NCBI RefSeq assembly: GCF_028550415.1
Contig: NZ_JAQQKX010000013.1
Location: 62,001 to 126,000 of the forward strand
Source: Asticcacaulis aquaticus
GTDB lineage: Bacteria; Pseudomonadota; Alphaproteobacteria; Caulobacterales; Caulobacteraceae
DNA length: 64,000 nt
Reading direction: 5' to 3'
The position numbers and the translations under genes were made by a program. The notes under the pieces were generated by a model, which worked only from the letters and a program-made list of their open reading frames with translations, searched no databases and had not been told where the DNA came from. Below are positions 21,397 to 57,006 of the stretch, piece after piece. Position 1 is the stretch's first letter. Each line of letters opens with the position of its first letter.

Positions 21397-21410
21397 TAGG
21401 AGTAACTGAT

Positions 21411-23696: not shown

Positions 23697-23708
23697 GGAT
23701 AAAACCGA

Positions 23709-24017: not shown

Positions 24018-24020
24018 CCT

Positions 24021-24305: not shown

Positions 24306-24318
24306 GGGCGTTTATTGC

Positions 24319-28714: not shown

Positions 28715-28715
28715 G

Positions 28716-29819
28716 ATGCGTAACACCTTCGATGCCGACCCGAAGTCGCAGAAAGACCCGCGCACCACCTTGCCGCCATCGGACCTCGATGCCGCCACGA
28801 CGCGTGCCCTGCCCGCCGTCGCCGCCACCTCGACGCTGAAAGATAGCCTCGTGCTGGCGGGCGGCATCATGGGCGCGGTGTTCCTCGGTGCCCTGACCCT
28901 GATCTTCATGGGCAATAATCGCCGCGATGTGGCGCAGGTCGCGGCCAATACGCCGCCGGTTCAGCAACAACAAGTGCCGCCGCCGGGCCAAAACCCGCCC
29001 GGCACCGTCATGGAACTGCCGCCCGTCGCGCTTCCTGAAGGTCCGATCCAGCCCGTCCCGCCGCAACCCGGTGCACCGCCGCCGGTCGCCGCGCCTGACA
29101 ACAGCATGCGCGCCAATGCGCTGGTCTATGATGTCAGCGCGCCGGACCCGGCGCCCGCCGATGCCGCCAACGCCGCCGCCAACAAGGTCGCGCCAAAGGA
29201 AAACGTCTTTGACGCCAATAATCTGGCCGACGCCACCGGCTTCGACGCTTCACGTCAGGTCCGCGCCACGCGTATCGCCAACCCCGCCTCGACCGTATCG
29301 CAAGGCACCCTGATCCCCGCCGTACTGGAAACCGCGCTCAATTCCGATCTGCCGGGCTATACCCGCGCTCTGGTCGCACGCGATGTAAAAAGTTTCGACG
29401 GCCGCCGCGTCCTCATCCCGCGCGGCTCGCGCCTGATCGGTTCCTATCGTTCGGGCCTGCAAAGCGGGCAGAAACGCCTGTTCATCACCTGGGCGCGCCT
29501 GATCCGTCCGGACGGCACCGCGATCACCCTCAGCGACCCCTCGACCGACAATCTCGGTCAGGCGGGGCAGACCGGCGAGGTCGACAGCCACTTCTTCAAG
29601 CGCTTCGGCTCGGCCATGCTGCTGTCGATCGTCGGCGGCCTGTCCAATTCGCTCGGCGACGGCAATAATTCGACCATCGTCATCGGTACGGCGGCGGGCG
29701 CCAACAGCGCGGCGACCGGCGCTCTGTCCAGCGACTCGAAGATCTCCCCCACCGTCAAGGTGGCGCAGGGCACGCCGATTCAGGTCTTCGTCTCCCGCGA
29801 CCTCGATTTCTCGCTGTAA
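28716..29819 (+). CDS. virB10: VirB10-like channel protein
   Basis: 367 residues. A short cytoplasmic N-terminus and one transmembrane helix (about 46-68, ending GALTLIFMG) precede a Pro/Gln-rich periplasmic linker (VQQQQVPPPGQNPPGTV). The TrbI/VirB10 beta-barrel follows, with SRLIGSYRSGLQSGQKRLFI and the loop with the antenna helix (FFKRFGSAMLLSIVGGL). The linker spans the periplasm. It starts one base after virB9. Confidence 0.93.
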   Translation: MRNTFDADPKSQKDPRTTLPPSDLDAATTRALPAVAATSTLKDSLVLAGGIMGAVFLGALTLIFMGNNRRDVAQVAANTPPVQQQQVPPPGQNPPGTVMELPPVALPEGPIQPVPPQPGAPPPVAAPDNSMRANALVYDVSAPDPAPADAANAAANKVAPKENVFDANNLADATGFDASRQVRATRIANPASTVSQGTLIPAVLETALNSDLPGYTRALVARDVKSFDGRRVLIPRGSRLIGSYRSGLQSGQKRLFITWARLIRPDGTAITLSDPSTDNLGQAGQTGEVDSHFFKRFGSAMLLSIVGGLSNSLGDGNNSTIVIGTAAGANSAATGALSSDSKISPTVKVAQGTPIQVFVSRDLDFSL

Positions 29820-29822
29820 GCC

Positions 29823-30800
29823 ATGGCCGACCTGCTCCCCACCGAAGGCGTCTATCTCAAGGCCTACCTCCAGCCGTTCCGCCAGTGGCTGGACCGCGCC
29901 GAAGTGACCGAAGTCATGGTCAACCGCCCCGGTGAGGTCTGGGTCGAGATCAGCGGTCAGGCCCGGATGCAGCGCTTCGACGCGCCCGATATCGATGATG
30001 GCCTCCTTAGCCGTCTGGCCGCACAGATCGCCCGCATCAGCCATCAGGGCATCAACCGTGAAAACCCTCTGCTGGCGGCCACCCTGCCGACCGGTGAACG
30101 CGTGCAGATCGTCGGCCCGCCCGCCACACGCCGTCACTGGGCCATCGCCATCCGTCGCCATCTGATGGTCAATCGCCCGCTCGCCTCCTACGATCGCGGC
30201 CCAATCGCGCCGCCCGCCTACGCCAATATGGCCGACGAACAGGCCGCCGCCCGCGCCAACCCGGTCGCCTTCCTCACGGCGGCGGTCGCGGCGCGCAAAA
30301 CGATCCTTATTTCCGGCGGCACCTCGTCGGGCAAGACCACCTTCCTCAATGCGCTGCTGGGGGCCGTACCGGAATATGAGCGCGTCATCCTGGTCGAGGA
30401 TACCCCCGAAATCGCCGTCACCCAGCCGAATGCACTGGGCCTTGTCGCCGTCAAGGGTGAGCTGGGCGAGGCCAAGGTCGCGGTCAACGATCTGCTTCAG
30501 GCCTCGCTCCGTCTGCGGCCCGACCGCATTATCGTCGGCGAAATCCGCGGTGCCGAGGCCGTGACCTTTCTACGCGCCATCAATACCGGCCATCCGGGCT
30601 CCTTCACCACGGTCCACGCCAACACCCCTCAGGGCGCGTTGGAACAGATTGCCCTGATGGTCATGCAGTCGGGCATGAGCCTCTCGCGGCAGGAAACCAT
30701 CGCCTATGCCTGCGGCCTGATCGACGTGGTGGTGCAGCTATCCAAGGCGGGCGGTGAACGCGGCATCAGTGACATCTGCCTGCCGCGCACCCTGCTCTGA
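29823..30800 (+). CDS. virB11: VirB11 hexameric ATPase
   Basis: 325 residues: an N-terminal domain (VTEVMVNRPGEVWVEISGQ) and a RecA-like domain with Walker A (SGGTSSGKTTFLNALL, near residue 166), the Asp box (ILVEDTPEIAV), Walker B (DRIIVGEIRGAEA) and the His box (SFTTVHANTP). It drives pilus assembly and substrate transfer. The gene starts three bases after virB10 and ends the locus; the gap of 117 bases and a promoter-like sequence at 30812 set the next gene apart. Confidence 0.95.
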   Translation: MADLLPTEGVYLKAYLQPFRQWLDRAEVTEVMVNRPGEVWVEISGQARMQRFDAPDIDDGLLSRLAAQIARISHQGINRENPLLAATLPTGERVQIVGPPATRRHWAIAIRRHLMVNRPLASYDRGPIAPPAYANMADEQAAARANPVAFLTAAVAARKTILISGGTSSGKTTFLNALLGAVPEYERVILVEDTPEIAVTQPNALGLVAVKGELGEAKVAVNDLLQASLRLRPDRIIVGEIRGAEAVTFLRAINTGHPGSFTTVHANTPQGALEQIALMVMQSGMSLSRQETIAYACGLIDVVVQLSKAGGERGISDICLPRTLL

Positions 30801-43046: not shown

Positions 43047-44396
43047 GTGGGCTCATCCAATCGCATCGACGGCTGGAAAGCGATCGGCGGCCATTTCGGG
43101 CGCGACCGGACGACCGTCATGCGCTGGGCGCAGCAGCGTGGTCTGCCGGTGCGACGCCTGCCGGGCGGCAAGACCGGCACCGTCTATGCCCTCAGAGACG
43201 AACTGGATCGCTGGGCGGCCAATCAGACTAATCTGAACGAGGAGGTGCCAGACGGCCTGACGGAGACTCAGGCTCTCCCGGTCGCCACGCCGGAACGATC
43301 GTTCTGGGCGCGAAACTGGCGGCGTCTGGCCGTCGTGGGGCTGATGGGACTGGCCATCGCCTTTGCGGCAGGCACGATCCTCATGTCGCGTGTCGCCTCG
43401 CCCGCCCAAACCCCGGCCCTGCCGTCCGATCCGGCGGTCAGCGCCCTCTATCTCGAAGCGCGCGACGCCTGGGCCCAGCGTACGCCGGCCTCGCTCACAC
43501 GGGCCATCAGCCTGCTCACCACCATTACCCGGAAAGACCCGGGCTTCGCCCCCGCCTGGGCCGGGCTGGCCGACGCCTATCTGCTGTCGCGTGAATTCGG
43601 CATCACCCCCGATGCCGAAGCGTTCCCAAAGGCGAAAGCCGCCGCCGAAACCGCCCTGCAGCGCAACCCGGAACTGGGGGCGGCCCACCGGGCGCTGGGC
43701 TTTATCGCCTACTGGTGGCAGGACGATCCGCAAACGGCGGGCCGGTTCTTCCGTAAGGCTCTGACGCTGTCGCCGCGCGATGCTCAGACGCATTTCTGGT
43801 ACGGCAATATCCTTTCGGACAACGGACAGCACGTGGCCGGATTGCGCGAACTGAACACGGCCCGCCTGATCGAGCCGGGTTCGGTCGCCATTCAGACCGA
43901 TCTCGCCTGGGCGCAGTGGTCGGCGGGCGAAGACGCCGAAGCGCGGCAGGCGCTCAGCCAGCTCATGCAGGTTCGGGCCGACTTTCCCGTCGTCCACGAC
44001 TGTACCAGCCTGATCAAGCTGGCCGATGGCGACTATGTCGGTTACGTGCAGGATCTGGGCGAATTCGCCCGCCTGCGCGGCGATCCTGAACTGATCCGCC
44101 ATGCCACGGCCCTGCGCGACGATCTGAAAACCGGTGCGGACGCCGTTCAGCGTCGCCTGATGCAATATGCGCTGGCTGAGATCGCCGCCAAGACCCGCCG
44201 CACGCATGTGTGGCCGGTATTTCTCGCCTCGGTCGCCCAGAACCGTCAGCAGGTGGTCAATCTGCTCAAAGCCGCCGAGACGCGCGGCGAAAAATGGGGC
44301 GAGGCCGGTCTTACCGCCCGCATCGCCCGTCTGTGGATGGACGACGGCGAAATCGCCGCCAGCCTGCGTCGTCTGAAAGCCGCACCGGTCGAATAG
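43047..44396 (+). CDS. Membrane-bound HTH-TPR regulator
   Basis: 449 residues from the GTG at 43047, preceded by GGGGGA. The N-terminus (about 1-55) is an excisionase/MerR-type helix-turn-helix: RIDGWKAIGGHFGRDRTTVM then RWAQQRGLPVRRLPGGKTGT and YALRDELDRWAAN. One transmembrane segment follows (about 92-112), then TPR-like repeats (PAWAGLADAYLLSREFGI, AAHRALGFIAYWWQDDPQTA and others) on the outside. The layout is like CadC-type one-component regulators with a periplasmic sensor. It diverges from the GH43 gene and is a likely regulator of the sugar genes. The frame is open to 42726, but that region is the promoter. Confidence 0.75.
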   Translation: MGSSNRIDGWKAIGGHFGRDRTTVMRWAQQRGLPVRRLPGGKTGTVYALRDELDRWAANQTNLNEEVPDGLTETQALPVATPERSFWARNWRRLAVVGLMGLAIAFAAGTILMSRVASPAQTPALPSDPAVSALYLEARDAWAQRTPASLTRAISLLTTITRKDPGFAPAWAGLADAYLLSREFGITPDAEAFPKAKAAAETALQRNPELGAAHRALGFIAYWWQDDPQTAGRFFRKALTLSPRDAQTHFWYGNILSDNGQHVAGLRELNTARLIEPGSVAIQTDLAWAQWSAGEDAEARQALSQLMQVRADFPVVHDCTSLIKLADGDYVGYVQDLGEFARLRGDPELIRHATALRDDLKTGADAVQRRLMQYALAEIAAKTRRTHVWPVFLASVAQNRQQVVNLLKAAETRGEKWGEAGLTARIARLWMDDGEIAASLRRLKAAPVE

Positions 44397-44554: not shown

Positions 44555-45217
44555 ATGGTGCACTTTACCCGCAGATCGGCGTTCAGCCTCCCCGTCATGG
44601 GTGTGGTCGGCGGTATGGCGGTTCTGTTGTGGCCGCGCGGTGGGCACGCCGCCCCCACCTTTGCACCGCGACCGGCCCTGAAGGGCCTGATGGCCGCCCG
44701 GCAAAGCGCCATCTGTCACGTGGCCGACTACGGCGGCAGCCAGACCCTGATCCTGCTGATTAATGGTATCCCGGTCGAAGCTCATCTCCGCCGCAACGGC
44801 CTCTATCAGCCCAAGGACCAGCGCCGGTCGCGCGCGGCCAAACCGGTCACCCCGGTCGATTTCAACCGCCTGATCGCCGCGGCGGGCGGGCTGGACAAGG
44901 GCGTCAACGGCACCCCCAGAGCGGCCGAATTTTTCGCGCTTTATAACAGCCTGATGCCCGCCGTCACGGCACCGGACCCCTGCCCGGCCGATTTCGCCCA
45001 CCGGACCACCAGCGAGCGCGCCACGATCCGTCAGGGACTGGGGACGGCGGCATATACGCGCTACGCCCCCTGCTTCACCCTCGATGGCGACGCGGTGCGC
45101 CTCGATTTCAGCGACGATCCCTTTTTCGATACCTGGACGTTCGAACGCGACGCCCAGGGGCATTTTTACGGCCTGAGCGCACCCGGCGTGCGGGCCATAT
45201 GGTCATTGGAGGCCTGA
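44555..45217 (+). CDS. Exported protein of unknown family, first gene of the secretin operon
   Basis: 220 residues. An N-terminal arginine pair and hydrophobic stretch (FTRRSAFSLPVMGVVGGMAV) look like a signal for Sec or Tat export. The mature part has three Cys (near residues 54, 147 and 168), a segment LILLINGIPVEAHLRRNGLY and an acidic end. No family is recognised. It ends five bases before the secretin gene, so the two are translated together. The upstream 158-base gap holds no clear promoter. Confidence 0.65.
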   Translation: MVHFTRRSAFSLPVMGVVGGMAVLLWPRGGHAAPTFAPRPALKGLMAARQSAICHVADYGGSQTLILLINGIPVEAHLRRNGLYQPKDQRRSRAAKPVTPVDFNRLIAAAGGLDKGVNGTPRAAEFFALYNSLMPAVTAPDPCPADFAHRTTSERATIRQGLGTAAYTRYAPCFTLDGDAVRLDFSDDPFFDTWTFERDAQGHFYGLSAPGVRAIWSLEA

Positions 45218-45222
45218 ACGCT

Positions 45223-46851
45223 ATGACGCCCAAACCCCTGATCCGCGCCACCCTGATGGCCGCTCTGCTGTGCAGCGTATCCGCCTGCGCGACCGCCCCT
45301 TCCGGCCCGTCGGCGACCGCCGATATACCCCGCGCCATCGGTATCGATCAGGCGGCGCTGGCCCTGCAAACCGGCGATCATGCCACGGCGCTCAAAGGGT
45401 TCGGCGACGCGGCGGCGCGCGATCCGTCCGACGCCGCGCGGCAGACCCTGCTGGGTATGACCTATCAGGCAGCGGCACAGGGCGACCCGGAACAGCTCGA
45501 TCTGGCGCTGGCCGGTTACGATCTGGCGCTGCGCAGCGGTCAGGATGCCTTCTGGGCCGCGGCGCTGGCGGGCAAGGCGGCGTTCGACCGCGGCCGCTAC
45601 GCCCAGGCCCAGAGCTACTATGCGCGGGCCGTCATGATGCGTCCCGACGATGCGCGTGCCCTGCTGGGGCTGGCGATGAGCGCCTATATGGCGGGCGATC
45701 CGCAACTGGCCGCGCTGAGTGCCGAACGCGCTGCCGCCCTAAGTAGCGATCCGGCCCTGATGAGCGGGGCGCTGAAAATCGGCGCCCTGTCCTATGCCGC
45801 CACAGGCCGCCGCGATCAGGCCGCCGCCCGATACCAGAAGCTTATCCTTGTCGCGCCGGAACAGGCCGCGCCGGTCAAGGCGCGCATGGAGGAACTGACC
45901 CGGACCGAGGCCACCGACCCGGTACCGGAGGCCGCGACGCGCGATCCCGGCACGCCTGATCAGGTCTCGGTCGATGTCGCGATCATCCTGTCGCAGAACG
46001 CCCAGCGCGACTCCATAGGCCTGAACCTGCTCGACGGCCTGCAAATTCAGTATGGCCGTCAGGACCAGCAGACCCATGCCGGCAGCGATACCGGTGTATC
46101 ACGCACCATCACCGATACTATCACCCTGCCCCAACTGACCTATAACCTCAATCTCTTCAACCGGTTCGGTCAATATTATCAGGTGGTTGCCCGCCCCATG
46201 CTCACCGCCTATCGCGGCGAGCCCTCGGACTTTTTCGTCGGCCGTTCGACCAAGGTCGCCGTCAAGGGCGTCAACTTCTCGCAACTGGAAAACATCGACA
46301 TCGGCACCCAGGTCAAGGTGACGCCGCTGGAGATCACCGCCGAGGGCACGCGTCTGAAGATCGAGGTCACCCGTTCCTTCCTGTCCGGCGAACCGGCGGG
46401 GAATTTCAATGAGGCGCTGAATACCTGGCGGCAGACGGTCTCGACCACCGTCGAGGTAAAGTTCGGCACAACGCTGATCCTGTCCGGCCTGTCCGAAAGC
46501 GTTCGCGACTCCTCGGTCACCAAAACCCCTCTGCTGGGCGATGCGCCGGTCATCGGTTCTGCCTTCAATCGCCGGGTGACCAATGAACGCCGCGATGCGG
46601 TGCTGGTCCTTGTCACGCCCGCCCCGGCTCAGGCCATCCAAAGCACACCGTGGGCGCGTCCGGCCGATGTGGAGCGCCTGATCGGCCTGTGGGGCACGAC
46701 GGTCGCACCGGGTTCGGATCTGGGCGCGATCACGGGAAACCTGTCGCGCTCGCGCCTGTTCACCCGCGCCCGCAAGACCGATGCCCAATTGTCGTGGCCC
46801 AGCCTGCCGCACGATCAGGGTGAAATCCTCAAAGACCTTATCCTGCCGTAA
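45223..46851 (+). CDS. TPR-secretin lipoprotein
   Basis: 542 residues. A lipobox ends SAC (Cys22). Residues about 45-220 form TPR-like helical repeats (GIDQAALALQTGDHATALKG; AALAGKAAFDRGRYAQAQSY). From about 245 the protein is a secretin domain: QVSVDVAIILSQNAQRDSIG opens it, and the family signature near the end is GTTLILSGLSESVRDSSVTK then LLGDAPVIGSAFNRRV and DAVLVLVTPAP. The usual N0 and N1 modules are replaced by the TPR part. Secretins form outer-membrane rings in type II/III secretion and type IV pili, but no ATPase, pseudopilin or inner-membrane platform gene lies nearby. GGAGG precedes the ATG. Confidence 0.8.
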   Translation: MTPKPLIRATLMAALLCSVSACATAPSGPSATADIPRAIGIDQAALALQTGDHATALKGFGDAAARDPSDAARQTLLGMTYQAAAQGDPEQLDLALAGYDLALRSGQDAFWAAALAGKAAFDRGRYAQAQSYYARAVMMRPDDARALLGLAMSAYMAGDPQLAALSAERAAALSSDPALMSGALKIGALSYAATGRRDQAAARYQKLILVAPEQAAPVKARMEELTRTEATDPVPEAATRDPGTPDQVSVDVAIILSQNAQRDSIGLNLLDGLQIQYGRQDQQTHAGSDTGVSRTITDTITLPQLTYNLNLFNRFGQYYQVVARPMLTAYRGEPSDFFVGRSTKVAVKGVNFSQLENIDIGTQVKVTPLEITAEGTRLKIEVTRSFLSGEPAGNFNEALNTWRQTVSTTVEVKFGTTLILSGLSESVRDSSVTKTPLLGDAPVIGSAFNRRVTNERRDAVLVLVTPAPAQAIQSTPWARPADVERLIGLWGTTVAPGSDLGAITGNLSRSRLFTRARKTDAQLSWPSLPHDQGEILKDLILP

Positions 46852-46880
46852 GACCGCCCATATTTTCAGAGGTTTACATC

Positions 46881-47936
46881 ATGACCCGCGCCTTCGTTTC
46901 ACGTACCGCCGCCGCCCTGTGCCTGATCGCCGCCCCCCTTGCCGCCTCAGCGCAGACGCCACAGCCGCGCTCCGACCTGACGGTCGCTGCCGACATCAAA
47001 CCCATGATCAGCGCCCAGCAGATGACCCGACTCAAAGCGGTCAGCAGCCGCTACGATCAGCGGATCGCCACCGCTTTCAAGGGCAAAGAGACATTGCGTC
47101 AGACGATGGAGACCGATCTGCGTGCCATCGAGGCCGAGGCGGCCCCTGCGCGGCGCAAGGCCCTGATCCAGACCTATCGCAGTAAGCACGGCGCCGCTTA
47201 CAAGCAGGTTCTCCGCGAAGGCGGCGTTGATCTTAAGGTCGTCTCCGGTGAATTCAGCGCCATCGTCCCGGAACTGGACTTTGAGGTCGTCGACGGGCTG
47301 AACCTGAGGGCCGTCCCGCGCACCGACGCGACCCGCAAAAAGGCCGCTGCCAAAACCTCGGCACCGCGCCCGACGACTCAGGTCAAGGCTCTGATGGGGG
47401 CCGACTATAGCATCGACAAGGATCTGAGTTGCGGAGCGATCGCCGGAAGCTCCGTCACCACCTCCGGCGGCTATATGCGCAATTCGACCTGGGCAGCCGA
47501 AGCGGGCGGTTGCGAAAACGAAGGCACGTTCCGCCACCGCTTCACCACCACGGCGAACCAAACGGTACGGGTGGAGATGACCGCCGATCTGGAGACCGAA
47601 GCCTATGCGGTCGCCATCCTTGCCGAAGCCATTGGACGCGCCCACGCTTCGCTCGACGTAACCTCGGCAAGCGGTCGAAGCCTGAGTGAAATCGATGGTT
47701 ACGATTACGAAGTGCCGTCGGTGAATTGCTACGCCTTCGCGATGTTCATGTGGGCGACATCGGAAACCTGTGAACGGCAGAACGTCGTCCTTTCGGTCGA
47801 GCTGAAATCACCCGGCACCTATGTGGTGCGTGGTCACACGGTGACCCGCACCATCGCCGGAGGTGTCGTCACAGGCACCACGGCGGAGGCCCGCATCAAG
47901 CAACTGCGCACCACCATCACCACGGAACCGAAATAA
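46881..47936 (+). CDS. Secreted protein A, paralog of the 48980 gene
   Basis: 351 residues with a signal peptide (cleavage after SAQ at about 25). A helical N-terminal part (RLKAVSSRYDQRIATAFKGK, then MRQTMETDLRAIEA-type helix) is followed by FEVVDGLNLRAV and a beta-rich C-terminal part with a cysteine pair around SCGAIAGSS and AAEAGGCENEGTFRHRF. The same arrangement is found in the gene at 48980. It has a good ribosome site and lies 29 bases after the secretin gene. No known family; probably a substrate or partner of the secretin. Confidence 0.65.
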   Translation: MTRAFVSRTAAALCLIAAPLAASAQTPQPRSDLTVAADIKPMISAQQMTRLKAVSSRYDQRIATAFKGKETLRQTMETDLRAIEAEAAPARRKALIQTYRSKHGAAYKQVLREGGVDLKVVSGEFSAIVPELDFEVVDGLNLRAVPRTDATRKKAAAKTSAPRPTTQVKALMGADYSIDKDLSCGAIAGSSVTTSGGYMRNSTWAAEAGGCENEGTFRHRFTTTANQTVRVEMTADLETEAYAVAILAEAIGRAHASLDVTSASGRSLSEIDGYDYEVPSVNCYAFAMFMWATSETCERQNVVLSVELKSPGTYVVRGHTVTRTIAGGVVTGTTAEARIKQLRTTITTEPK

Positions 47937-47961
47937 TCATCCGCGCGAAAGGACATTCAGT

Positions 47962-48960
47962 ATGTTCAGATATTTAGCCCCCGCCTTTATCATGGCCGCC
48001 TGCGCCGGACAGGCTGTCGCCCTGTGTCCCGGAACTGATGTGCCCGGCGCACCGCTGCTTCCTGCCGTAACTGCAGTCGAATTCTACAATGCCGCTGTTC
48101 CGGCCAAACCGCTAAAAGCCGTCGCCACCACGGAAACCGACCGTATGCAGGTCACCGGCGGCGTAGTCGGTAAGGGCAGCCTGACCCTCAACCTGACGCT
48201 TTCATCTGAGGTTGCGGCGGGGTGCGAACTCAGCTTCAGCCTGTTCGATGCCGCCACGCCTATTAATGGCCAGCGACAGACAGCAACGGAGCAAGTGTTT
48301 CCGGCCATTAATGTCCACAGAAACTACCTCCGTGTGATGTCTAACGGCACCAACAAGGTTCAGGTGACGCTTCCGGTAGGCATACGGCTGGGTAACTCCG
48401 CGATCCACCGTCATCGCATCGGCCTGAGTTCGCTTCGGGTGAACCAGACCCCTGAAACACCGCAGACATTTGAATTTCGCAACAACCCCATCCAGATCAA
48501 AGAGATACGACGCATCAGCCCAACCGCCGCTTCCGTGCGCGATGGCGATCGCGTCGAGATGGCCGTCTATCTGCAGGAACCGCTGGATGTCGCCACCTAC
48601 GAGTATGACCTTCTGCCTTCCCTGAGCAGTGAGTACCGCAGCAACAGCCTGCGCGTCGAATTCACCATAAGCCCGTCGGACGCCGCTTATCTGCTGCCGC
48701 GTGAGACACGGAGCTATGTGTATTTCCGCCCGGAATTCGCCGACGGCAGTTCCCGCACCGGCCTGATGATCGATGTCCCCGAGGCCCCCGCGAGCAAGGA
48801 ACTGAAGAAGAAGACAGAAACACCGCTGGCTCTGCCCGGACGACTGACTCTGCCAAAGAGCGATCAAACGCCCACGACCATCACCATCACGGCCCAGCTA
48901 TCGACCTATTTTTCCGGCCCCGGTGGCCAAACCCTTACCCTGCAAATTCCCGTCAACTAA
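47962..48960 (+). CDS. Exported beta-rich protein between the two paralogs
   Basis: 332 residues from the ATG at 47962 (AAAGGA upstream). A signal peptide (MFRYLAPAFIMAACAGQAVA) is followed by predicted beta strands with two Cys, for example GKGSLTLNLTLSSEV and GCELSFSLFD, later KVQVTLPVGIRLGNSA. A lysine-rich insert (ASKELKKKTETPL) precedes the C-terminal strands. No family is recognised. The position inside the operon suggests a common pathway with the secretin. Confidence 0.6.
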   Translation: MFRYLAPAFIMAACAGQAVALCPGTDVPGAPLLPAVTAVEFYNAAVPAKPLKAVATTETDRMQVTGGVVGKGSLTLNLTLSSEVAAGCELSFSLFDAATPINGQRQTATEQVFPAINVHRNYLRVMSNGTNKVQVTLPVGIRLGNSAIHRHRIGLSSLRVNQTPETPQTFEFRNNPIQIKEIRRISPTAASVRDGDRVEMAVYLQEPLDVATYEYDLLPSLSSEYRSNSLRVEFTISPSDAAYLLPRETRSYVYFRPEFADGSSRTGLMIDVPEAPASKELKKKTETPLALPGRLTLPKSDQTPTTITITAQLSTYFSGPGGQTLTLQIPVN

Positions 48961-48979
48961 ATCCCCGAAAGGAGCCACC

Positions 48980-49960
48980 ATGCGTACCTTACCGCTGATT
49001 GCCGCTGCCCTGTTGATCGCCACGCCCATAGCGGCACAGGAATCCAAAACGGTTGCCAAAACGCCTGCCGCGTCTGATGATACCAAGGAACAGACCGCCA
49101 AGGTTCAGGCCGTCCTTGCCGATTTCGATAAGAAGGTCATGGCGGGCTTCCAAGGCGAAGATAAACTGCTTGCGGCTATGCAGGCCGACCTCAAAGCCAT
49201 CGAGACTCAGAAAGACCCCAAGGCCCGCGCCGCCGCCATCACCGCCTATCAGAAGAAATATGCCGACTCCTACCGCAACGCGCTGAAAAAGGGCGGAGCG
49301 GATATCGGCAGTCTGGCGTCTGTCCTGTCGCAAATTCTGGGGGGGCGCACCTTCAAGGTGGTGGATGGCACGCATCTGGTAGCCGTAACCGACAACGGTG
49401 AGACGCCGCCCGCCCCGCCGCCGGCGCCCGCCAAACAAACGATTACGCTGGGCAGCAGCGACTTTACCTTCAGCCAGTCCGGATCATGCGCCGGCATCCG
49501 CGACTCCGACAGTTCCTATGCGAACTTTCGCGTGCGAACCTATACCTGGGCCGGAGTCGCCGGGGGCTGCGAAGAAAAAGGCACGCTCAACTATATCTTC
49601 GCGGTTGTCGACGGCCTGAACCCCACGGCACGCGTGAAGTTCGATCTGACCGCCGAAGCCAGCGCCGCGGCGGCAGGCGGTGCGGCGTGGTCGAAGGGCA
49701 TCAGCAGCATGACTGTTTTCGGCGGCCCGACACCGCTTGTCCGTTCCCTCACCATCGACGTGGTCGCCGCTGTCATGTGGGCCGCCGAAGACGACGGAGA
49801 AGTGCAGAACGCCGTCATGACCGTGACCGCCGGGCGCAACAGGGGCCTCATGATTCAGGGCCAGTCGATCAGTCGCGCCAATGCCGTCGGCCTGGCGGCC
49901 GGTACGGAATCGTCCAGCTCCGTGAAGATACAGGAAGCCTCGGTCGTGGCAAATCCCTGA
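48980..49960 (+). CDS. Secreted protein B, paralog of the 46881 gene
   Basis: 326 residues, preceded by AAAGGAG. A signal peptide (MRTLPLIAAALLIATPIAAQ) is followed by a helical segment (KVQAVLADFDKKVMAGFQGE; LLAAMQADLKAIETQ), FKVVDGTHLVAV, a proline-rich linker (ETPPAPPPAPAK) and a beta-rich end with SCAGIRDSDSS and WAGVAGGCEEKGTLNYIF. Each element has a counterpart at the same relative place in the 46881 product, so they are diverged duplicates. It converges with the Rieske gene, with four bases between the stops. Confidence 0.65.
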   Translation: MRTLPLIAAALLIATPIAAQESKTVAKTPAASDDTKEQTAKVQAVLADFDKKVMAGFQGEDKLLAAMQADLKAIETQKDPKARAAAITAYQKKYADSYRNALKKGGADIGSLASVLSQILGGRTFKVVDGTHLVAVTDNGETPPAPPPAPAKQTITLGSSDFTFSQSGSCAGIRDSDSSYANFRVRTYTWAGVAGGCEEKGTLNYIFAVVDGLNPTARVKFDLTAEASAAAAGGAAWSKGISSMTVFGGPTPLVRSLTIDVVAAVMWAAEDDGEVQNAVMTVTAGRNRGLMIQGQSISRANAVGLAAGTESSSSVKIQEASVVANP

Positions 49961-49964
49961 GTCT

Positions 49965-50969
49965 CTATAACCACATCTCGAACGGTCCCAGGGTTTCCGG
50001 CGTTAGTCGCTGTCCCTGATAAAGCGCCGTCAGTTTGTCGCCCAGACGGTCGGCGGGCCCTGCCTTGAAGCGCGGCCCGCCGAAGGTTTCGATATTGTCG
50101 CGCAGGTGTTTCAAGGCTTCTGCGTCCTGTTCAATGACCTTGAATAAGAACAAGCGGATCAGAACTTCGGTCAGCCACGCCGGGCCGCGTTTTTTCGGCG
50201 TCGAAAAGCGCGCGAAGGGCCGCATAACGCCCTCGGCCTCAGGCACGAACCAGATGGTGACACACAGGGTCAGTCCGGACGGGCTTTCCCAGCGCCCCTG
50301 AAAGGCCACCGGCGGATAGTAGCTGCCGGTCGAACGCGCGCGCGGCCCTTCGAGCGCCCGCGACATCCAGCCATGATCGGTGTCCTGCGCATAGACGGCC
50401 TCGAACCGGTCCTCGAAAACGTGCAGGGTCTGCTCGACGCGCTGCCGCCGCGATTTCACGCGGATATAGCCATCGTGGATGAAGTTGGTGTGGAAGGGAT
50501 CGAGGACATTGTCCAGCGCATCGTAGACCCTCGCTGCCTGTGGCCGGATCGCCCACCAGAAATGGTGATGCTCCGCCGCATCGGGCATCGGCGGCAAGGC
50601 GGTTGTGAAATCGTCCGGCCCGCTTTGCAGACGCACGAAGATGACACCGAAGGCTTCGCGCGCATCAACCGTCTCGGCGCTCAGGCGGCGCGTGTCGGGA
50701 TCGACGCACCCCGGTACGTCGCGGCAGGCGCCTTCGGCGTCGAAGGCCCAGCCGTGATAGGGGCAAACCAGCCGCCCGGCCTCGACCCGACCTTCCGACA
50801 GTGGATAGTTGCGATGCGGGCAACGGTCACGGAAGGCCACGATGCCCTCGGCGGTGCGCCACAGGACAACGGGATGCCCCGCCACCACGCGCTTGAGCGG
50901 CTTACGGCGCACCTGACGGCTGAGGGCGACCGGCAGCCACGAGGTCTCGATTCCAGCAGGCAGACTCAT
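49965..50969 (-). CDS. Rieske-type oxygenase, last gene of the biosynthetic operon
   Basis: 334 residues. The Rieske [2Fe-2S] site is complete (Cys50-His52 in RCPHRNYPLSEG, Cys69-His72 in VCPYHGWAFD). The mononuclear iron motif is visible as DPFHTNFIH (Asp157, His160, His165). Such proteins hydroxylate, demethylate or desaturate with electrons from a reductase, which is not encoded here. It overlaps the GNAT-like gene by four bases. In this context it probably does a late tailoring oxidation. Confidence 0.9.
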   Translation of the reverse strand: MSLPAGIETSWLPVALSRQVRRKPLKRVVAGHPVVLWRTAEGIVAFRDRCPHRNYPLSEGRVEAGRLVCPYHGWAFDAEGACRDVPGCVDPDTRRLSAETVDAREAFGVIFVRLQSGPDDFTTALPPMPDAAEHHHFWWAIRPQAARVYDALDNVLDPFHTNFIHDGYIRVKSRRQRVEQTLHVFEDRFEAVYAQDTDHGWMSRALEGPRARSTGSYYPPVAFQGRWESPSGLTLCVTIWFVPEAEGVMRPFARFSTPKKRGPAWLTEVLIRLFLFKVIEQDAEALKHLRDNIETFGGPRFKAGPADRLGDKLTALYQGQRLTPETLGPFEMWL

Positions 50970-51940
50970 GCGGCACTCCTCAGGAGGTGGGGTTCGGCGC
51001 GACCCAGGACAAAGGCGAGCAGGCTATAGCCCGTCCGACGCCATAGCGGCAGGTGCGCATCGATGACGATCATATATTCGACATAGGGTTTCGCGCCGCG
51101 ATGGGCCTTGAACCGCCCGGCCCCCGCCGACAAATTCAACGCCACCCCCTTCGCACAGGCGGCTTCGAAAGCCACGGTCATGATGCTGCGATAAAGGCCG
51201 TCGCCGGCCGGACGCGTCCGGTCGTAACCGACCATCGGCACGGTCAGCATATCGTCATTGCCATGCAGGGCGCAGACGGCGACAATGCCCGTTGCATCCG
51301 ACAGGGTATGGATTTCCAGACAACCCTCCGCCAGAAGCGATTGTATATATTCGAGTTCATAGTCGGGATTGAACCGGCTATAGGCGTCGATATAGAGGCT
51401 GCGATAGAGGCTCAGACAGCGCGTCAGCATGACCTCAGGCAAACCGTTGCGATGGATGTCGTGCCGCAACCCGGATTGCGCCAACCGCACCCGGTCGCGC
51501 CGGGCATCGCGGCGGTCGCACCAGTCGCGCTTAGGGTCGCCGACGATCCACACCACGCGGAACGGCCAGCGTTTGTAAGCTTGCGCCAAGATGTCGCGAT
51601 GCGAAAAGGCGTTGAGCGAACGGATCAGCACCGCCCGGTCCGCAAAACGCACCTCTTCGGCCAGAACCGCCGTCAGACGGTCTGGGGTGTATAGCGAGGT
51701 GCTCAATAATCTGTGGTCGGGATAGATGGCCTGGTCGATGCGAAAAAGTCGCCCCACCCTCTCGGCCAGATGGCTGATCATGACCGCCACCCACGCGGAC
51801 GGCCCGTGCATCACTCGACCTATTTCCTCGCGCGCTACGGGGCCGATGGCCGTCGTCAGCGACGTCAGCCAGCAGCGGTTCGGCGCCTCCGGCACCGCCA
51901 CCGCGCCATCGAACCGGACACGGGCATTACGCAGACCCAT
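50966..51940 (-). CDS. GNAT-like acyltransferase
   Basis: 324 residues. The C-terminal half (from about 175) looks like a GNAT fold: a helix with CLSLYRSLYIDAYSRFNPDY, strands EIHTLSDATGIVAVCALHGN and VPMVGYD, then GDGLYRSIMTVAFEAACAKG and the acyl-CoA-binding-like loop. The N-terminal half has an own small domain. Similarity is weak; a related acyl- or aminoacyl-transferase fold is also possible. It overlaps ATP-grasp by 14 bases and Rieske by four. Confidence 0.55.
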   Translation of the reverse strand: MGLRNARVRFDGAVAVPEAPNRCWLTSLTTAIGPVAREEIGRVMHGPSAWVAVMISHLAERVGRLFRIDQAIYPDHRLLSTSLYTPDRLTAVLAEEVRFADRAVLIRSLNAFSHRDILAQAYKRWPFRVVWIVGDPKRDWCDRRDARRDRVRLAQSGLRHDIHRNGLPEVMLTRCLSLYRSLYIDAYSRFNPDYELEYIQSLLAEGCLEIHTLSDATGIVAVCALHGNDDMLTVPMVGYDRTRPAGDGLYRSIMTVAFEAACAKGVALNLSAGAGRFKAHRGAKPYVEYMIVIDAHLPLWRRTGYSLLAFVLGRAEPHLLRSAA

Positions 51941-53045
51941 AGCGGCCTCCGTTATATTCGATGTCGGCGGTCATCCCGGCGGCCAGGCTCTGCCCTTGTC
52001 TCACGGCACGCCAGCCGTAACCGAGGGTGTCGCGCAAAGCCGCGATGCTCAGTCCGGCAAGGACATCCCGGCCCCGCGCCCGATCGTCCCGCCATGGCGT
52101 CAGACGCCCTTCGCGCAGGGCTTTCGGCAAGCCATAGAGCCACATGGCCGGGCCGACAAAGGCAGGCGTGCCGTCCGTTCGCAGGACCGGCCCAGCTCCC
52201 ATAAACGCCGCTGCCAGCCCCGCCGGATCGTGGGCCAGCAGGTGCAGGCCGGACGTGGCGCGCGGGTTGCATTCCAGCAGCCACAACCGTCCGTCGGCGT
52301 CCTGCCGCAGGTCGCAGGCTACCTGCCCGGTGAGGCCCAGCCCTCCGATCAGGGTCCGGGCCACATCTTCGAGCCTTCCCGACAGGACCGGCTCGACCGG
52401 GTCGATATAGTAGCTGGCACCGCCGCGGGTTCGCCATCCCGACCGGTAGGCGCAAAAGGCCGAGACCTCCCCCGCGTGGGCCAGAGCATAGAAACTCAGG
52501 TCTTCGCCATCGATACAGGCCTGCATCAGCCAGGGATTGGCCGGGTCATGACGCAGCGATTCAAGGCGGGATACGGCCGGGCGGATCAGAACCTGCGTAC
52601 CGAAGCGCGAAAACTCAGGCTTGAATACGGACCGAGCGGCGGCGTGGCGCGCCCCTTCATCCGTACCGGTCAGGCGGCGCGTGGCGGGCACAGCGATCCC
52701 CAGACCTCCGGCCAGTTCGAGAGCGTCGAACTTGGAATGCAGGGCGAGCAGCCGGTCAGGCTCAGGCGCAAAGAGCGGCAGGTCCAGAGCCGACCAATGG
52801 AAAATTTCCTCGCACAGACAGATGATTACATCCATCTTTTCGCCAATTTTCAAAGCCTCTGTCCGGAACCGCGATGCGGCGAAGACCGGCGAGGCATGCG
52901 TCTGGAACGCCTGCACCGGCAATCGGTCGACAATCGCGCTGCGGTGAACATCGGCGGCGTGGACCTCGTGCCCCTGTCCGCTCAGGGCGCGGATCAGGTC
53001 GACCGCCACGGGGGCGCGGACACCGGTGACCAGAATTCGGCTCAT
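51927..53045 (-). CDS. ATP-grasp ligase
   Basis: 372 residues. The N-terminus MSRILVTGVRAPVAVDLIRA is a Rossmann-like pre-ATP-grasp domain; the ATP-grasp part has FKPEFSRFGTQVLIRP, QACIDGEDLSFYALA and the metal-binding end LWLLECNPRATSGLHLL (Glu and Asn). ATP-grasp enzymes join a carboxylate to an amine or thiol through an acyl-phosphate. The ATG at 53045 overlaps the previous stop by four bases. The likely task is to form an amide on the pathway product. Confidence 0.8.
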   Translation of the reverse strand: MSRILVTGVRAPVAVDLIRALSGQGHEVHAADVHRSAIVDRLPVQAFQTHASPVFAASRFRTEALKIGEKMDVIICLCEEIFHWSALDLPLFAPEPDRLLALHSKFDALELAGGLGIAVPATRRLTGTDEGARHAAARSVFKPEFSRFGTQVLIRPAVSRLESLRHDPANPWLMQACIDGEDLSFYALAHAGEVSAFCAYRSGWRTRGGASYYIDPVEPVLSGRLEDVARTLIGGLGLTGQVACDLRQDADGRLWLLECNPRATSGLHLLAHDPAGLAAAFMGAGPVLRTDGTPAFVGPAMWLYGLPKALREGRLTPWRDDRARGRDVLAGLSIAALRDTLGYGWRAVRQGQSLAAGMTADIEYNGGRYGSA

Positions 53046-54220
53046 GACATCCACCGAACATGCCGCCGCTTGGGGTAGCCCTGAGCCGGGTCCCACGCCG
53101 TTCGCTGCACGGGCTGTCCGAACCTTGCCAAGGCCGCCGCCACGGCGCTGGCGTCATCATCATGGGCGCAGGCAAAGACGATACCGTTCGGCCTGCCGGT
53201 CGCCGTCCAGCCTTGATCGGACGGTAAACCGGGCGATACCCGTGCCTCGACCTCGCCCGGAAAAACGGTCTGCGCGCCCCAGCGCCAGATATCCTGAACC
53301 CGCCCTTCGACGGGCCTGACGGCACGCAGGGCCGAACCGCAGGCACAGACGGTGTCCTGAAGGATATCGTCCAGCCGCAGGCGAATGACGGCCTGCGACC
53401 GGCGGCGCAGATCGGTGACGACGGGGCGAAACCGCCCCTGATCACCCAGCGGCTCGGTCTCGACGATCAGGCTGTCCTCATTGAGATGCAGGGTGCCCAA
53501 CCGGCACGGCGCGCCGAGAAAGCCTTCCGTCGCCTGATAGATCGGATCGGGCCGGACACCCAGCCGAGCGGCGATGCCGTCGCGTTCGACGACGTTCAGC
53601 GTCTCCGCGCCATAAAAGACCCGGCGCAGCGACGGCAGGGTGCGCAACTTCAGCAGAACTTGCGGCGGCGCGATAAGGATTTCGGGGTCGAAGGCCTCTA
53701 TTTCGTCCGCGTCGCCGTTCAGCGGAAAAAAGCGCAGGTCGAACCGTTTCGACCGGTAGAGGTCGTTCGGCGCACGCAGGCACAGGGCGACCCTCCGATA
53801 GCGCATCAGTTCGATCGGCGTCAGCAGCTTGCCCAGCAACTGCCCCATATAGGCGGCGCGCTCGACCGGTGTGGTCACGAACAGGCCCCGCGTGCCACCG
53901 GACGTGCCGGTCGAAAATCCGGCCCGCAGGCCCGGCGACTGGGCGACGCCGGTTTCCGCCGCGGTGGCCAGAGCCTCGGCCTCGGTGTAGGTGACCCCCG
54001 ACGCAAAGGCGTCGAACCTTGTGCGAAATGCGGCAATGTCCGTGACCTGAAAATCGGTCAGGGCGTCACCCGTAACCTCGGCATAGGCCGGCACCGCCCG
54101 CAGTTCCACGCGTTTTCGCTGCCACAGCCGCGCCTGATGACGCGCGATCGTGGCGCGCGACCAGCGGCGGCTGATCAGGGCCGTCGTATAGGCCGACAGA
54201 AAAGCCCCCGCCTCAGCCAT
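53042..54220 (-). CDS. CapK/F390-synthetase-like adenylate-forming enzyme
   Basis: 392 residues. The phosphate loop is FSTGTSGGTRG (residues 102-112), and the later segments FYGAETLNVVERDGIAARLG and IYQATEGFLG belong to the adenylating-enzyme core, as in phenylacetate-CoA ligase and coenzyme F390 synthetase relatives. It would activate a carboxylic acid as an acyl-AMP. Four Cys/His-like residues (TVCACGSALR) may bind zinc. It overlaps its neighbours by eight and four bases. Confidence 0.82.
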   Translation of the reverse strand: MAEAGAFLSAYTTALISRRWSRATIARHQARLWQRKRVELRAVPAYAEVTGDALTDFQVTDIAAFRTRFDAFASGVTYTEAEALATAAETGVAQSPGLRAGFSTGTSGGTRGLFVTTPVERAAYMGQLLGKLLTPIELMRYRRVALCLRAPNDLYRSKRFDLRFFPLNGDADEIEAFDPEILIAPPQVLLKLRTLPSLRRVFYGAETLNVVERDGIAARLGVRPDPIYQATEGFLGAPCRLGTLHLNEDSLIVETEPLGDQGRFRPVVTDLRRRSQAVIRLRLDDILQDTVCACGSALRAVRPVEGRVQDIWRWGAQTVFPGEVEARVSPGLPSDQGWTATGRPNGIVFACAHDDDASAVAAALARFGQPVQRTAWDPAQGYPKRRHVRWMS

Positions 54221-55040
54221 GCCTCACCCACTTCCCCGCTGTACGCGCGCAATGCGACGGAATGATCTCCACCCGCCCGCGCTTCGATAGCGCGTTGAGC
54301 GCCGTCAGCGTCGCACGATAAGTCGCCGTATGCCCCAGCAGGCCCGTGGTCAGGGCAGGCGGCGGCACATTGTCTTCGACGGCGTCCAGCGACCACGCGG
54401 CATCCCCGATAAAGAACAGCCGTGCTTGGGGCACCCACAATCCCCAATGTCCCTTACAATGCCCGGGCAGTTCGACCGCGATCAGACTGCCGTCACCGCA
54501 GAGATCAACGCCGTGCGTGAACGGCGCCAAATCGTCACCCAAAGCCTCAGGCGGCAGAACCTCGAAAAAGGTGGCGCGCCGATCTATATCCTCCGGCACG
54601 AGCGCACCGAGCAGGCCCTGCCGGACGCGCGTGAACCGACTGCCCCGTCGGGTGGCCTCCAGACCCGCCCGGGCGCAAAAAATCCGGGCCTGCGTAAATC
54701 GCGTCAGCCCCGCGACGTGGTCGCCGTGGAAATGCGAGACGACGACCGCCGCGATATCGTCCGGCGCGTAACCGTAGGTTTTCAGTTGATCTTCAAGCGG
54801 TTGTTCGGGCAGGCTCACGGGCGTGGCCAACCGGTAGAGCCGTTCGGGAAAGGGTTCGGTCGCCGTAAAAAAGCGTCGGTCATAGCCGGTATCGAACAGG
54901 ATCGGCCCCCAACTTTCATGCACGATCAGGCCCACCAGCGCCGGGAAATCGACCGGACACAAATGGCCGCCGCGACGGCTCATGATTTCCGGGTGTCGAC
55001 AGGCCCCGACCTGCAAAATGTGGACCGCCGTCACGCTCAT
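54213..55040 (-). CDS. Metallo-beta-lactamase-fold hydrolase
   Basis: 275 residues with the dinuclear metal motif HFHGDH (residues 103-108), ILFDTGYDRR, the later His in ELPGHCKGHWGLW, Asp in FFIGDAAWSLD and His in IIPSHCARTAG. The pattern is that of acyl-homoserine-lactonase-like hydrolases, so the substrate could be a lactone or thioester. In this operon it may release or open a pathway intermediate. Confidence 0.85.
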   Translation of the reverse strand: MSVTAVHILQVGACRHPEIMSRRGGHLCPVDFPALVGLIVHESWGPILFDTGYDRRFFTATEPFPERLYRLATPVSLPEQPLEDQLKTYGYAPDDIAAVVVSHFHGDHVAGLTRFTQARIFCARAGLEATRRGSRFTRVRQGLLGALVPEDIDRRATFFEVLPPEALGDDLAPFTHGVDLCGDGSLIAVELPGHCKGHWGLWVPQARLFFIGDAAWSLDAVEDNVPPPALTTGLLGHTATYRATLTALNALSKRGRVEIIPSHCARTAGKWVRHG

Positions 55041-56011
55041 GAGGCCGCCTCGATGGCGCTTTGGAAGGCGTCATATGCCGGTTTGAACCCTAGCCGCTCG
55101 CGCGCCACGCTCAGGTCGAACATCTGCGAAAAGGCCAGGGTCGTCAGACCATAGACGGTCAGCGGCGGTTCCGGCTGACCGGGGAGCCGGCGGCAGACGG
55201 CTTCCATACCCGCAACTGCCAGACGTAACGGCCCGTAGGGTACGGGGACAAATTTGACCGGCAAATTGAGAGCCTGTGCAAATCGCTCGACCATCTCCCT
55301 GACCGGCAAGGCATGACCGCCAGAAATATTAACCGCTTCGCCATTCAACAGGGGCGCGCGTTGTTCGGCCAGCACCAGCGCCTGCGCCACATCACGCACA
55401 TCGGTCAGTTCCATCAGGGCCTGGCCGCCTCGCAGAAGCGGAAACCGGCCCCTGCGCATCAGGCGCAGGACGCGCGGCAGCAGCACCGTATCGTCGGGGC
55501 CGACAATGGCACGGGGACGGATCGACACGCAGGCCATATCGGCGTTGGCCGCATTGAGCACCCGCCGCTCGGCCTCGATCTTGGTGGCGGCATAGGCGTT
55601 GAGAGGGCGCGGCGTGACCGGATCGCTTTCCCGGAGGCCGATCTGGTCTGCGGCACGCGCATAAACCGAAGGTGAGGAAACGAATACAAATCTCTGACAT
55701 TTTTCAGCTTTTGCCGCGATTAACAACGCCTCGGTCGCCGCCACATTGATCGCGTGAAAGGCCGCTTTCGCGCCCCATGGGCTCGACAGAGCCGCCGCGT
55801 GGATCACGCTGTCCATGCCGTCGACCAACGCCTGAGCCGCCCCCGGCGTACACAGATCGGTGGCGACGAATTCCACGCCCGGCCCTTCGAGGCGCGCACC
55901 GCGCGTCACGTCGCGCCCCGTCGCCCGCACGCGATAGCCTTGTCGGCGCAAGACCTCGACGACCGCCAGCCCCAGCCCGCCCGTCGCCCCTGTGACCAGC
56001 ACCCGCCTCAC
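55037..56011 (-). CDS. NAD(P)-dependent epimerase/3-beta-hydroxysteroid dehydrogenase-like SDR
   Basis: 324 residues, extended short-chain dehydrogenase. Cofactor motif TGATGGLG (residues 7-14), catalytic Tyr140 and Lys144 in YAATKIEAE, and Ser in VFVSSPSVYA. The closest general type is the sterol/2-alkyl-3-ketoalkanoate reductase group (OleD-like). Beside a KAS III-like enzyme, reduction of a beta-keto acyl product is plausible. It overlaps both neighbours by four bases. Confidence 0.85.
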   Translation of the reverse strand: MRRVLVTGATGGLGLAVVEVLRRQGYRVRATGRDVTRGARLEGPGVEFVATDLCTPGAAQALVDGMDSVIHAAALSSPWGAKAAFHAINVAATEALLIAAKAEKCQRFVFVSSPSVYARAADQIGLRESDPVTPRPLNAYAATKIEAERRVLNAANADMACVSIRPRAIVGPDDTVLLPRVLRLMRRGRFPLLRGGQALMELTDVRDVAQALVLAEQRAPLLNGEAVNISGGHALPVREMVERFAQALNLPVKFVPVPYGPLRLAVAGMEAVCRRLPGQPEPPLTVYGLTTLAFSQMFDLSVARERLGFKPAYDAFQSAIEAAS

Positions 56012-57006
56012 AGACGCAACACCATGGCGCCGATGCTCACCCCCGCCGAGGTGCCGAGCAGCAGCGCGGTCGATCCGGGCGTCAGGCGGCCCTCGACCTG
56101 CGCCGCGTACAACGCCGACGGCAAGGAGGCGGCGATCTGGTTGCCATGGTCGGCAAAGATATCGACCACGCGTTCGGGGCGCACCTTCACCAGATGACGG
56201 ATATATTCGAGGCCCGGCTGACTGGCCTGATGGCAGACGATCGTGTCGATCGCGTCGAGCGTCAACCCGGCCTGAGCCATCACCTTATCGAGCACCACCG
56301 GCACATGCCGCCCTGCCGCCTTGAACACGGCGAACGGGTCCATCTGAAACAGCGCCGCCGCGCGCAGGGCCTCGATGCCATCCTCGATGCGCACCTTCGT
56401 GCCGCCCGCCCGCAGCACCGCCGTATCCTTGCCCGTGCTGAACGTGGCAAACACTGAACCGAGGACGGCGGGGCCTTCCGATGACGCCTCCACACAAACC
56501 GCTGCGGCCCCGTCACCGAAAATGGCCGAGATTTCCGGACGACTGTAATCAAGCCCCGCCGAGGCGATGTCGCTGGCAAAGATGACCGCCCGACGACAGC
56601 GACCGGCGGCGATGTAGAGGCTGACCGTATCCAGTGCCTGAAGGAAGGACAGGCAGGTCATATTGATATCGAAAGCCACAATGCCGGATCGGGCCAGACC
56701 CAGCCGGTCCTGCACCAGCGGCGCCGTCCCGGGGATGGGCTGCTCCATTACACCGCACGCCCCGACCAGCAGATCGAACGCGCCGTCGGACCACCCGGCC
56801 TGCTTCAGAGCCTCACGACAGGCTTCCGCGGCCATGAACGAAGTCGTCTCATCGCGGGCGGCGATACCACGCGACCCTATGCCGAAGCGGGCCTCGGTCC
56901 AGCCCCCGGCTTCGCCGAAGCGGGCATCGAGCGCCGTGGACGGTTGGGAAACGCGCGGGCGATACCGGCCCAGCCCCGCCAATCTCACGCCAATAGGAAA
57001 TGTCAT
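56008..57006 (-). CDS. 3-oxoacyl-ACP synthase III / OleA-like ketosynthase
   Basis: 332 residues of the FabH/thiolase superfamily. Catalytic Cys118 in DINMTCLSFLQ, His259 in VCHQASQPGLEYIR and Asn289 in DHGNQIAASLPSAL make a full triad. FabH-specific GDGAAAV is present. As the only ketosynthase in a coupled operon and not near fatty-acid genes, it probably condenses acyl chains for a specialised product. It is the first gene of the seven-gene operon. Confidence 0.88.
   Translation of the reverse strand: MTFPIGVRLAGLGRYRPRVSQPSTALDARFGEAGGWTEARFGIGSRGIAARDETTSFMAAEACREALKQAGWSDGAFDLLVGACGVMEQPIPGTAPLVQDRLGLARSGIVAFDINMTCLSFLQALDTVSLYIAAGRCRRAVIFASDIASAGLDYSRPEISAIFGDGAAAVCVEASSEGPAVLGSVFATFSTGKDTAVLRAGGTKVRIEDGIEALRAAALFQMDPFAVFKAAGRHVPVVLDKVMAQAGLTLDAIDTIVCHQASQPGLEYIRHLVKVRPERVVDIFADHGNQIAASLPSALYAAQVEGRLTPGSTALLLGTSAGVSIGAMVLRL

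Follow-up and report, generated by a model that had tools for sequence, protein, structure and literature searches.

To our knowledge, secretins serve motor-driven machines, i.e. type II secretion systems (T2SS), type III secretion systems, type IV and Tad pili, and filamentous phage. What, then, is the role of a secretin gene that stands among genes of family-less exported proteins? The question was raised by a locus of Asticcacaulis aquaticus (Caulobacteraceae) in a 64,000-nt stretch of contig NZ_JAQQKX010000013.1 (positions 62,001 to 126,000), which we call the window. An earlier note described five closely spaced genes at 44555-49960, here named G1 to G5, and took them for an undescribed export or surface-display system around the outer-membrane pore G2. 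By sequence comparison, G2 is a secretin by family, but it belongs to a separate clade, has a separate architecture and stands in a gene neighbourhood of its own. The idea of a separate, undescribed system was supported because the exported partners co-occur with G2 and its secretin domain falls outside the Tad and T2SS groups; that the partners are exported through the pore or displayed on it is still something that we infer. The gene set is listed below (genes carry one digit, genomes three).

REG, 43047..44396, plus strand: probable membrane-anchored transcription regulator with a helix-turn-helix (HTH), one transmembrane segment and a tetratricopeptide repeat (TPR) domain that is presumably periplasmic
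G1, 44555..45217, plus strand: small exported protein of no known family, with a twin-arginine (Tat-like) signal
G2, 45223..46851, plus strand: outer-membrane lipoprotein with a TPR front (about residues 45-220) and a secretin channel domain (about 247-470), no N0/N1
G3, 46881..47936, plus strand: exported partner, paralog of G5; the mature part contains four paired cysteines
G4, 47962..48960, plus strand: exported partner of a family distinct from G3/G5; relatives behind the secretin in G029, G099 and G109
G5, 48980..49960, plus strand: exported partner, paralog of G3; its ortholog in strain YBE204 lies behind the secretin (64-66%)

The TPR-secretin and its exported neighbours

The coordinates and the gaps between G1, G2, G3, G4 and G5 (5, 29, 25 and 19 bases) were as previously given, and the neighbour downstream of G5 is convergent. 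REG (43047-44396), which belongs to the gene set, had been overlooked in the earlier note, as had the strain-to-strain exchange of the exported genes. In REG, TPR_19 scored over its cut-off and HTH_17 weakly, below its cut-off; there is one hydrophobic segment, and the start could lie further upstream than 43047.

The description of G2 as a TPR-secretin lipoprotein without N0/N1 modules agreed with our searches. Residues 319-466 matched Pfam Secretin (PF00263) with E = 7.9e-24 and 84.6 bits, against a cut-off of 27.5, and the match spans profile positions 8-165 of 169, which places G2 in the family. TPR_2 and TPR_16 were also above their cut-offs, and no STN, Secretin_N or other N-module was found in Pfam at E <= 1. 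The lipobox cysteine C22 is invariant in the 12 aligned orthologs. So are T435, P436, G439, P442, G445 and F448 (12/12), which we take to be the C-terminal secretin signature. By sequence, the best-scoring secretin chain in the PDB was RcpA, the Tad secretin. TadD, a TPR lipoprotein, is a binding partner of RcpA and links it to the outer membrane (PMC10499894). By analogy, because TadD does so, the fused TPR lipoprotein front of G2 would most simply be a built-in pilotin.

G1, G3, G4 and G5 had no Pfam or NCBIfam match over the cut-off, and all four passed a crude rule for soluble exported proteins, which bears out their earlier description as exported and family-less. Among the genes of all loci read, 69/350 pass this rule, and among the partner proteins 20/23. 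The number of cysteines behind the signal is even in most partner proteins; the one at locus L016 is an exception. The genes at 46881 and 48980 had rightly been called diverged copies: G3 and G5 share 29% identity (E = 2e-37), and C170 and C197 of G5 are invariant in 8/8 members of the G3/G5 family. The helical front proposed for this pair was seen at residues 36-119 of a low-confidence G5 model (3 rows, pLDDT 52), and the back part is all-beta. Foldseek returned 14 chains at E <= 0.001 for this weak model, mostly jelly-roll or carbohydrate-binding folds, with TM 0.36 or less. In a PDB sequence search at E <= 1, the profiles of G1 and of c5, a further partner family, had no match, and the G3/G5 profile had a single one, a designed TIM barrel at E = 0.59. 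Foldseek found nothing at E <= 0.001 for the low-confidence G1 model (4 rows, pLDDT 57). The twin arginines at residues 6-7 of G1 are invariant in 10/10 homologs.

Conservation of the core and exchange of the partners

We searched 199 genomes of the family, 25 of them in the genus Asticcacaulis, at E <= 1e-15, and 398 genomes of the order at E <= 1e-40. The family draw contained 17/199 genomes with a G2 match: 12 with orthologs (53-100% identity) and five with distant relatives (about 30% identical). The orthologs were found in 11 of the 25 Asticcacaulis genomes and in G187 of another genus. Order-wide, 6/398 genomes matched, which added G216 and G249 from two other families. The loci of all 14 orthologs (the 11 of Asticcacaulis, G187, G216 and G249) were read. 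The earlier note had proposed to look for conserved gene order in other Caulobacterales; the REG-G1-G2 core was kept in 10/11 loci of the genus, and the partners varied. In all 11, G2 is followed in the same direction by one or more members of four partner families that are unrelated to each other, i.e. G3/G5, G4, c5 and c6. The arrangements behind G2 were as follows.

Window: G3-G4-G5, same direction
YBE204, to which the window genome is close: G4-G5, same direction
G042: G3, same direction
G109: G4; a c5 gene 7 kb on, on the opposite strand
G099 (A. currens): G4, then c5 as a split gene in two frames
G089 (AND118): c5-c6, same direction
G085: c6, same direction
G052 (AC402): c6 and a 386-residue exported protein
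G119: c5, same direction
G141: a 164-residue protein, a G3-like protein and c5

Thus, the duplicated G3/G5 pair is not a general feature, and the partners differ by strain. The split c5 gene of A. currens, in two frames as assembled, lies at L036:12941-14447. A domain shared among the partner families was sought by profile-profile comparison and not found: all six pairs (A2/A3, A4/A3, A5/A3, A4/A5, A2/A4 and A2/A5) gave probabilities <1%, with alignments of 3-8 rows, from which a distant kinship could escape. The flanks of the unit differ between most loci. In AND118 it sits on a 135-kb plasmid, whose annotation lists the products of the unit as hypothetical or TPR proteins.

Co-occurrence with G2 had no exception within the genus. 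With hypergeometric values that are throughout uncorrected for relatedness, G1 was found in 10/25 genomes, all among the 11 with G2 (3.4e-6), and c5 in 9/25, all with G2 (2.7e-5), or 8/8 when a 46-residue fragment in G052 is set aside (1.5e-4); G3/G5 occurred in 6/199 family genomes (6/25 in the genus), all six with G2 (0.0026). In the order-wide draw, c5 was present in 4/398 genomes, one of them with the fragment, all among the six with G2; G042 and G216 have G2 without c5. The sole independent case of c5 is G249, from another family, where a kinase/regulator pair separates it from the secretin. G3/G5 members adjoin G2 in G000, G029, G042 and G141. Partner homologs lying mostly away from secretin genes would have spoken against a common system. 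This was not the case, as 6/6 genomes with G3/G5 have G2, four of them beside it. G4 was found solely behind G2, in a search confined to the fetched loci. On contig C16 of the window's own genome, a c5-family exported protein is encoded at L118:8663-10186 and is followed by an exported-looking gene; YBE204 is arranged alike.

The regulators also change between lineages. REG is directly upstream of G1-G2 in 10/11 Asticcacaulis loci, and its copies share 54-84% identity with that of the window. In G129, which lacks REG and G1, the order is G2-c5, and a histidine kinase/response regulator pair is divergently oriented. In G187, G216 and G249, the secretin adjoins hybrid kinases related to each other (42-48% identical) and related response regulators, a different kind from the G129 pair. 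In the tree, G129, G187, G216 and G249 lie outside the ten that have REG and G1 (support 100/97), so REG and G1 have probably taken the place of an older two-component control.

We counted the constant REG-G1-G2 core with changing partners as support for a tentative explanation, to which we give almost an even chance: an accessory export or surface-display unit around a self-piloting secretin, with dedicated Sec-exported partners and no dedicated ATPase. An unlikely alternative, yet the strongest of those considered here, is that the exported proteins belong to an outer-membrane complex as the cap, plug or base of a surface structure and are strain-specific decorations of one pore. A fixed neighbourhood and co-occurrence would look alike in both cases, and the matches of the weak, low-confidence G5 model include jelly-roll carbohydrate-binding and adhesive domains. 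However, four unrelated families in one position fit cargo better, and so do the extra, unlinked partner copies in genomes with one G2 gene. The rates of divergence also fit cargo better: the partners diverge faster than the pore in 5/6 locus pairs (in G052/G085 the divergence is equal), which would be expected of proteins that face the outside. Between the window and YBE204, identity is 85% for G2, 68% for G4 and 64% for G5.

Relation to Tad, type II secretion and other TPR-secretins

Does G2 belong to a known Tad or T2SS set encoded elsewhere, as the earlier note had asked? Apart from G2, the window's genome carries a single further secretin gene, in a Tad-like locus on contig C22. That locus has, besides its own secretin, a CpaF-type ATPase and the genome's only two T2SSF proteins, which are thus on C22 and not in the G2 locus; the label Tad comes from gene order, and CpaC is named from its place beside CpaF. 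In a tree of 46 secretin domains, 33 TPR-secretins were separated from 13 others with a split support of 100/100; all 33/33 TPR rows fell on one side and 5/5 CpaC rows on the other. The former comprised the 14 orthologs and 19 others, and the latter side five secretins beside CpaF, four from genomes with GspE and four of other sorts. The profile by which the TPR rows were selected covers the TPR part as well, and the tree was built on the secretin domain only. TPR and secretin were both confirmed by Pfam in 6/33 of these rows, and for the remainder the alignment is the basis; a loose lipobox is present in 27/33. The tree is midpoint-rooted, its long rows G108 and G165b pair doubtfully, and it leaves out the split genes found in G718 and G807. 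With its separate clade and a Tad-like locus that has its own secretin, G2 probably does not belong to a known set.

We consider it improbable that G2 serves the Tad pilus motor as an alternative secretin. All 14 genomes with a G2 ortholog have two or more T2SSF proteins, as expected of Tad, so this clade could borrow the Tad motor; the best PDB secretin chain is RcpA, which uses the TPR lipoprotein TadD (PMC10499894). Against this, the Tad-like locus of the same genome has a secretin, 14/25 genomes of the genus have a CpaF-type ATPase without G2, the secretin domain of G2 lies outside the CpaC group, and TPR-secretins occur in genomes without any T2SSF match. G2 resembles Tad RcpA/CpaC plus TadD (PMC10499894) in its secretin domain, TPR module and lipid anchor. 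It differs in that TPR and secretin form one polypeptide, no N-domain was found in it, and its unit is without ATPase, platform or pilin genes.

Among the scanned neighbours of the unit we found no pseudopilin or platform family (pilins were not searched for by profile), and there was no T2SSF gene on the window's contig. No ATPase was seen near the unit in these scans either, as previously stated; the single T2SSE-family ATPase of the window, at 29823-30800, is part of a VirB-like type IV secretion cluster and 14 kb away from G1. ATPase matches of GspE strength were absent from the window's own genome and present in 5/25 genomes of the genus, two of them among the 11 with G2 (9/11 lack one). 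GspD of type II secretion is an outer-membrane secretin through which folded exported proteins pass. G2 is likewise an outer-membrane secretin, but it lacks N0-N3, and its genome has neither a match of GspE strength nor an extra T2SSF.

A class-wide search matched 26/385 genomes at E <= 1e-25, the window's own included. Of these, 14 neighbourhoods were read and nine were uninspected; G659 and G677, taken up for the tree alone, grouped with canonical secretins there, and the count is an upper bound on TPR-secretins. Among 39 genomes searched, the T2SSF platform was absent from five: G613, G614 and G643 (estimated 99% complete, TPR-secretin intact), G718 (98%, gene split) and G627 (80%); genes could be hidden in draft assemblies. 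The wider class seems to be independent of a platform motor. A pentapeptide-repeat protein follows the TPR-secretin in G613, G718, G807, G884 and G885 (5/5 by Pfam), mostly with a signal peptide as judged by eye, and an NMT1-like binding protein precedes it in three/three loci tested in this lineage. These loci (L097, L098, L107, L120 and L121) belong to another alphaproteobacterial lineage, and G613 and G718 among them have no T2SSF match. The distant TPR-secretins at L048, L050, L096 and L099 have exported-looking neighbours (by eye), with no Pfam match in the two tested. Exported neighbours of TPR-secretins are thus a recurring feature of certain lineages and missing from others.

Several further arrangements were observed in the class. 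G742 has two TPR-secretin copies in tandem; tandem pairs are found at L105:7270-10997 and L098:6870-10594. The TPR-secretin at L120:5716-7890 has a LysM domain between its TPR and secretin parts. At L046, a distant TPR-secretin adjoins ABC exporter-like and TonB receptor-like genes, named by eye.

In the window itself, the VirB-type cluster (23157-30800) ends about 12 kb before REG and comprises transglycosylase, VirB3, CagE_TrbE_VirB, TrbL/VirB6, CagX, TrbI and T2SSE/VirB11 genes. A pair of DUF1800 and DUF1501 genes is at 19810-22958. On the minus strand at 49965-57006 there is a seven-gene set (Rieske, GNAT, ATP-grasp, an unknown, a metallo-beta-lactamase fold, epimerase and KAS III), which resembles a small biosynthetic cluster and has an identical order in YBE204. 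We placed the Rieske, GNAT and ATP-grasp genes outside the unit because they are on the other strand and recur only in YBE204 among the compared loci. Given the nearby ATP-grasp gene, a link to graspetides was considered (PMC8939145, which mentions secretin and TPR), and no connection was found in the part of that article available to us.

Possible function of the unit

In the export or display unit that we tentatively favour, REG would be a one-component regulator in the membrane, with its TPRs as periplasmic sensor, and would switch the unit on. G2 would be exported by Sec, lipidated and transferred to the outer membrane. Its TPR part would stand in for a separate lipoprotein of the TadD type and may also dock cargo; its secretin part, whose fold is assigned by homology, would form a multimeric channel. 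G3, G4 and G5, or elsewhere c5 or c6, would arrive in the periplasm through Sec, form disulfides as they fold, and then leave through the G2 channel or be displayed on it, without a dedicated ATPase or pseudopilus. G1 might be an accessory factor, probably exported by Tat and co-inherited with REG.

Several observations weigh against this scheme. No transport step was observed, and transport is what we infer. G3/G5 copies are unlinked to G2 in G085 and G129 and in a second copy in G029 (YBE204), and c5 is unlinked to it on C16 of the window's genome and about 100 kb off in YBE204. None of the four partner families is represented in the fetched stretch beside G2 in G187 and G216; behind G2 of G216 there are other exported-looking genes, one of them GDSL-like. 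A lipobox-like motif was found in 13/14 orthologs, G216 as read being the exception. G1 (70%) and two flanking genes (68% and 70%) diverge from YBE204 as much as the partners do. No exported partner was recognised beside the TPR-secretin in seven loci of the wider class (L100-L106). The structure models were too weak for fold assignment and were used only for the helical front and beta back. Finally, the T2SSF platform is present in 34 of the 39 genomes searched, and the possible loan of the Tad motor to the ortholog clade, described above, belongs here as well.

There is little likelihood that the unit is an uptake or sensing pore, in which REG and the TPRs of G2 detect or admit an outside ligand that the exported proteins capture. 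It would account for the three kinds of regulator found next to the pore, namely REG and the two types of kinase/regulator pair, and for the NMT1-like periplasmic binding protein that precedes the TPR-secretin in the other lineage. However, the unit is without an inner-membrane transporter gene, and fast-diverging partners with signal peptides fit export better. Chance co-transcription of genes with unrelated roles is very improbable: some partner homologs are unlinked and two ortholog loci have no recognised partner, but the co-occurrence of G1, G3/G5 and c5 with G2 has no exception in the 25 genus genomes, nor has that of c5 in the order draw, and the association is kept across several different flanks and one plasmid.

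Export by way of G2 would have partial precedents. Slam, PgaA and PelB/BcsC are TPR-plus-barrel exporters with a periplasmic TPR front fused to an outer-membrane pore; the similarity is weak and limited to the TPR part, and the pore of G2 is a secretin and not a monomeric barrel. In two-partner secretion (TpsA/TpsB), an outer-membrane channel gene lies beside that of an exported partner, and there is no ATPase. The G2 unit has the same plan of one channel gene beside an exported partner without an ATPase, but a secretin replaces the Omp85 barrel with POTRA domains, and there are several unrelated partner families. We found no described TPR-secretin system in the literature, where our coverage of subscription journals and preprints was slight.

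It is possible, if doubtful, that TPR-secretins are a separate alphaproteobacterial class of secretins, i.e. stand-alone self-piloting channels without an inner-membrane motor and with lineage-specific exported partners: c5, G3, G4 and c6 in Caulobacterales, and pentapeptide-repeat proteins in another lineage. If true, secretion through such channels would resemble the two-partner route, with a secretin as the pore. With a secretin class that has a built-in pilotin, and some 99%-complete genomes without a platform match, ATPase-free passage of folded proteins becomes testable. The exchangeable partners are candidate surface or secreted proteins without an assigned family, and the unit suggests a simple, so far undescribed route for proteins to the cell surface.

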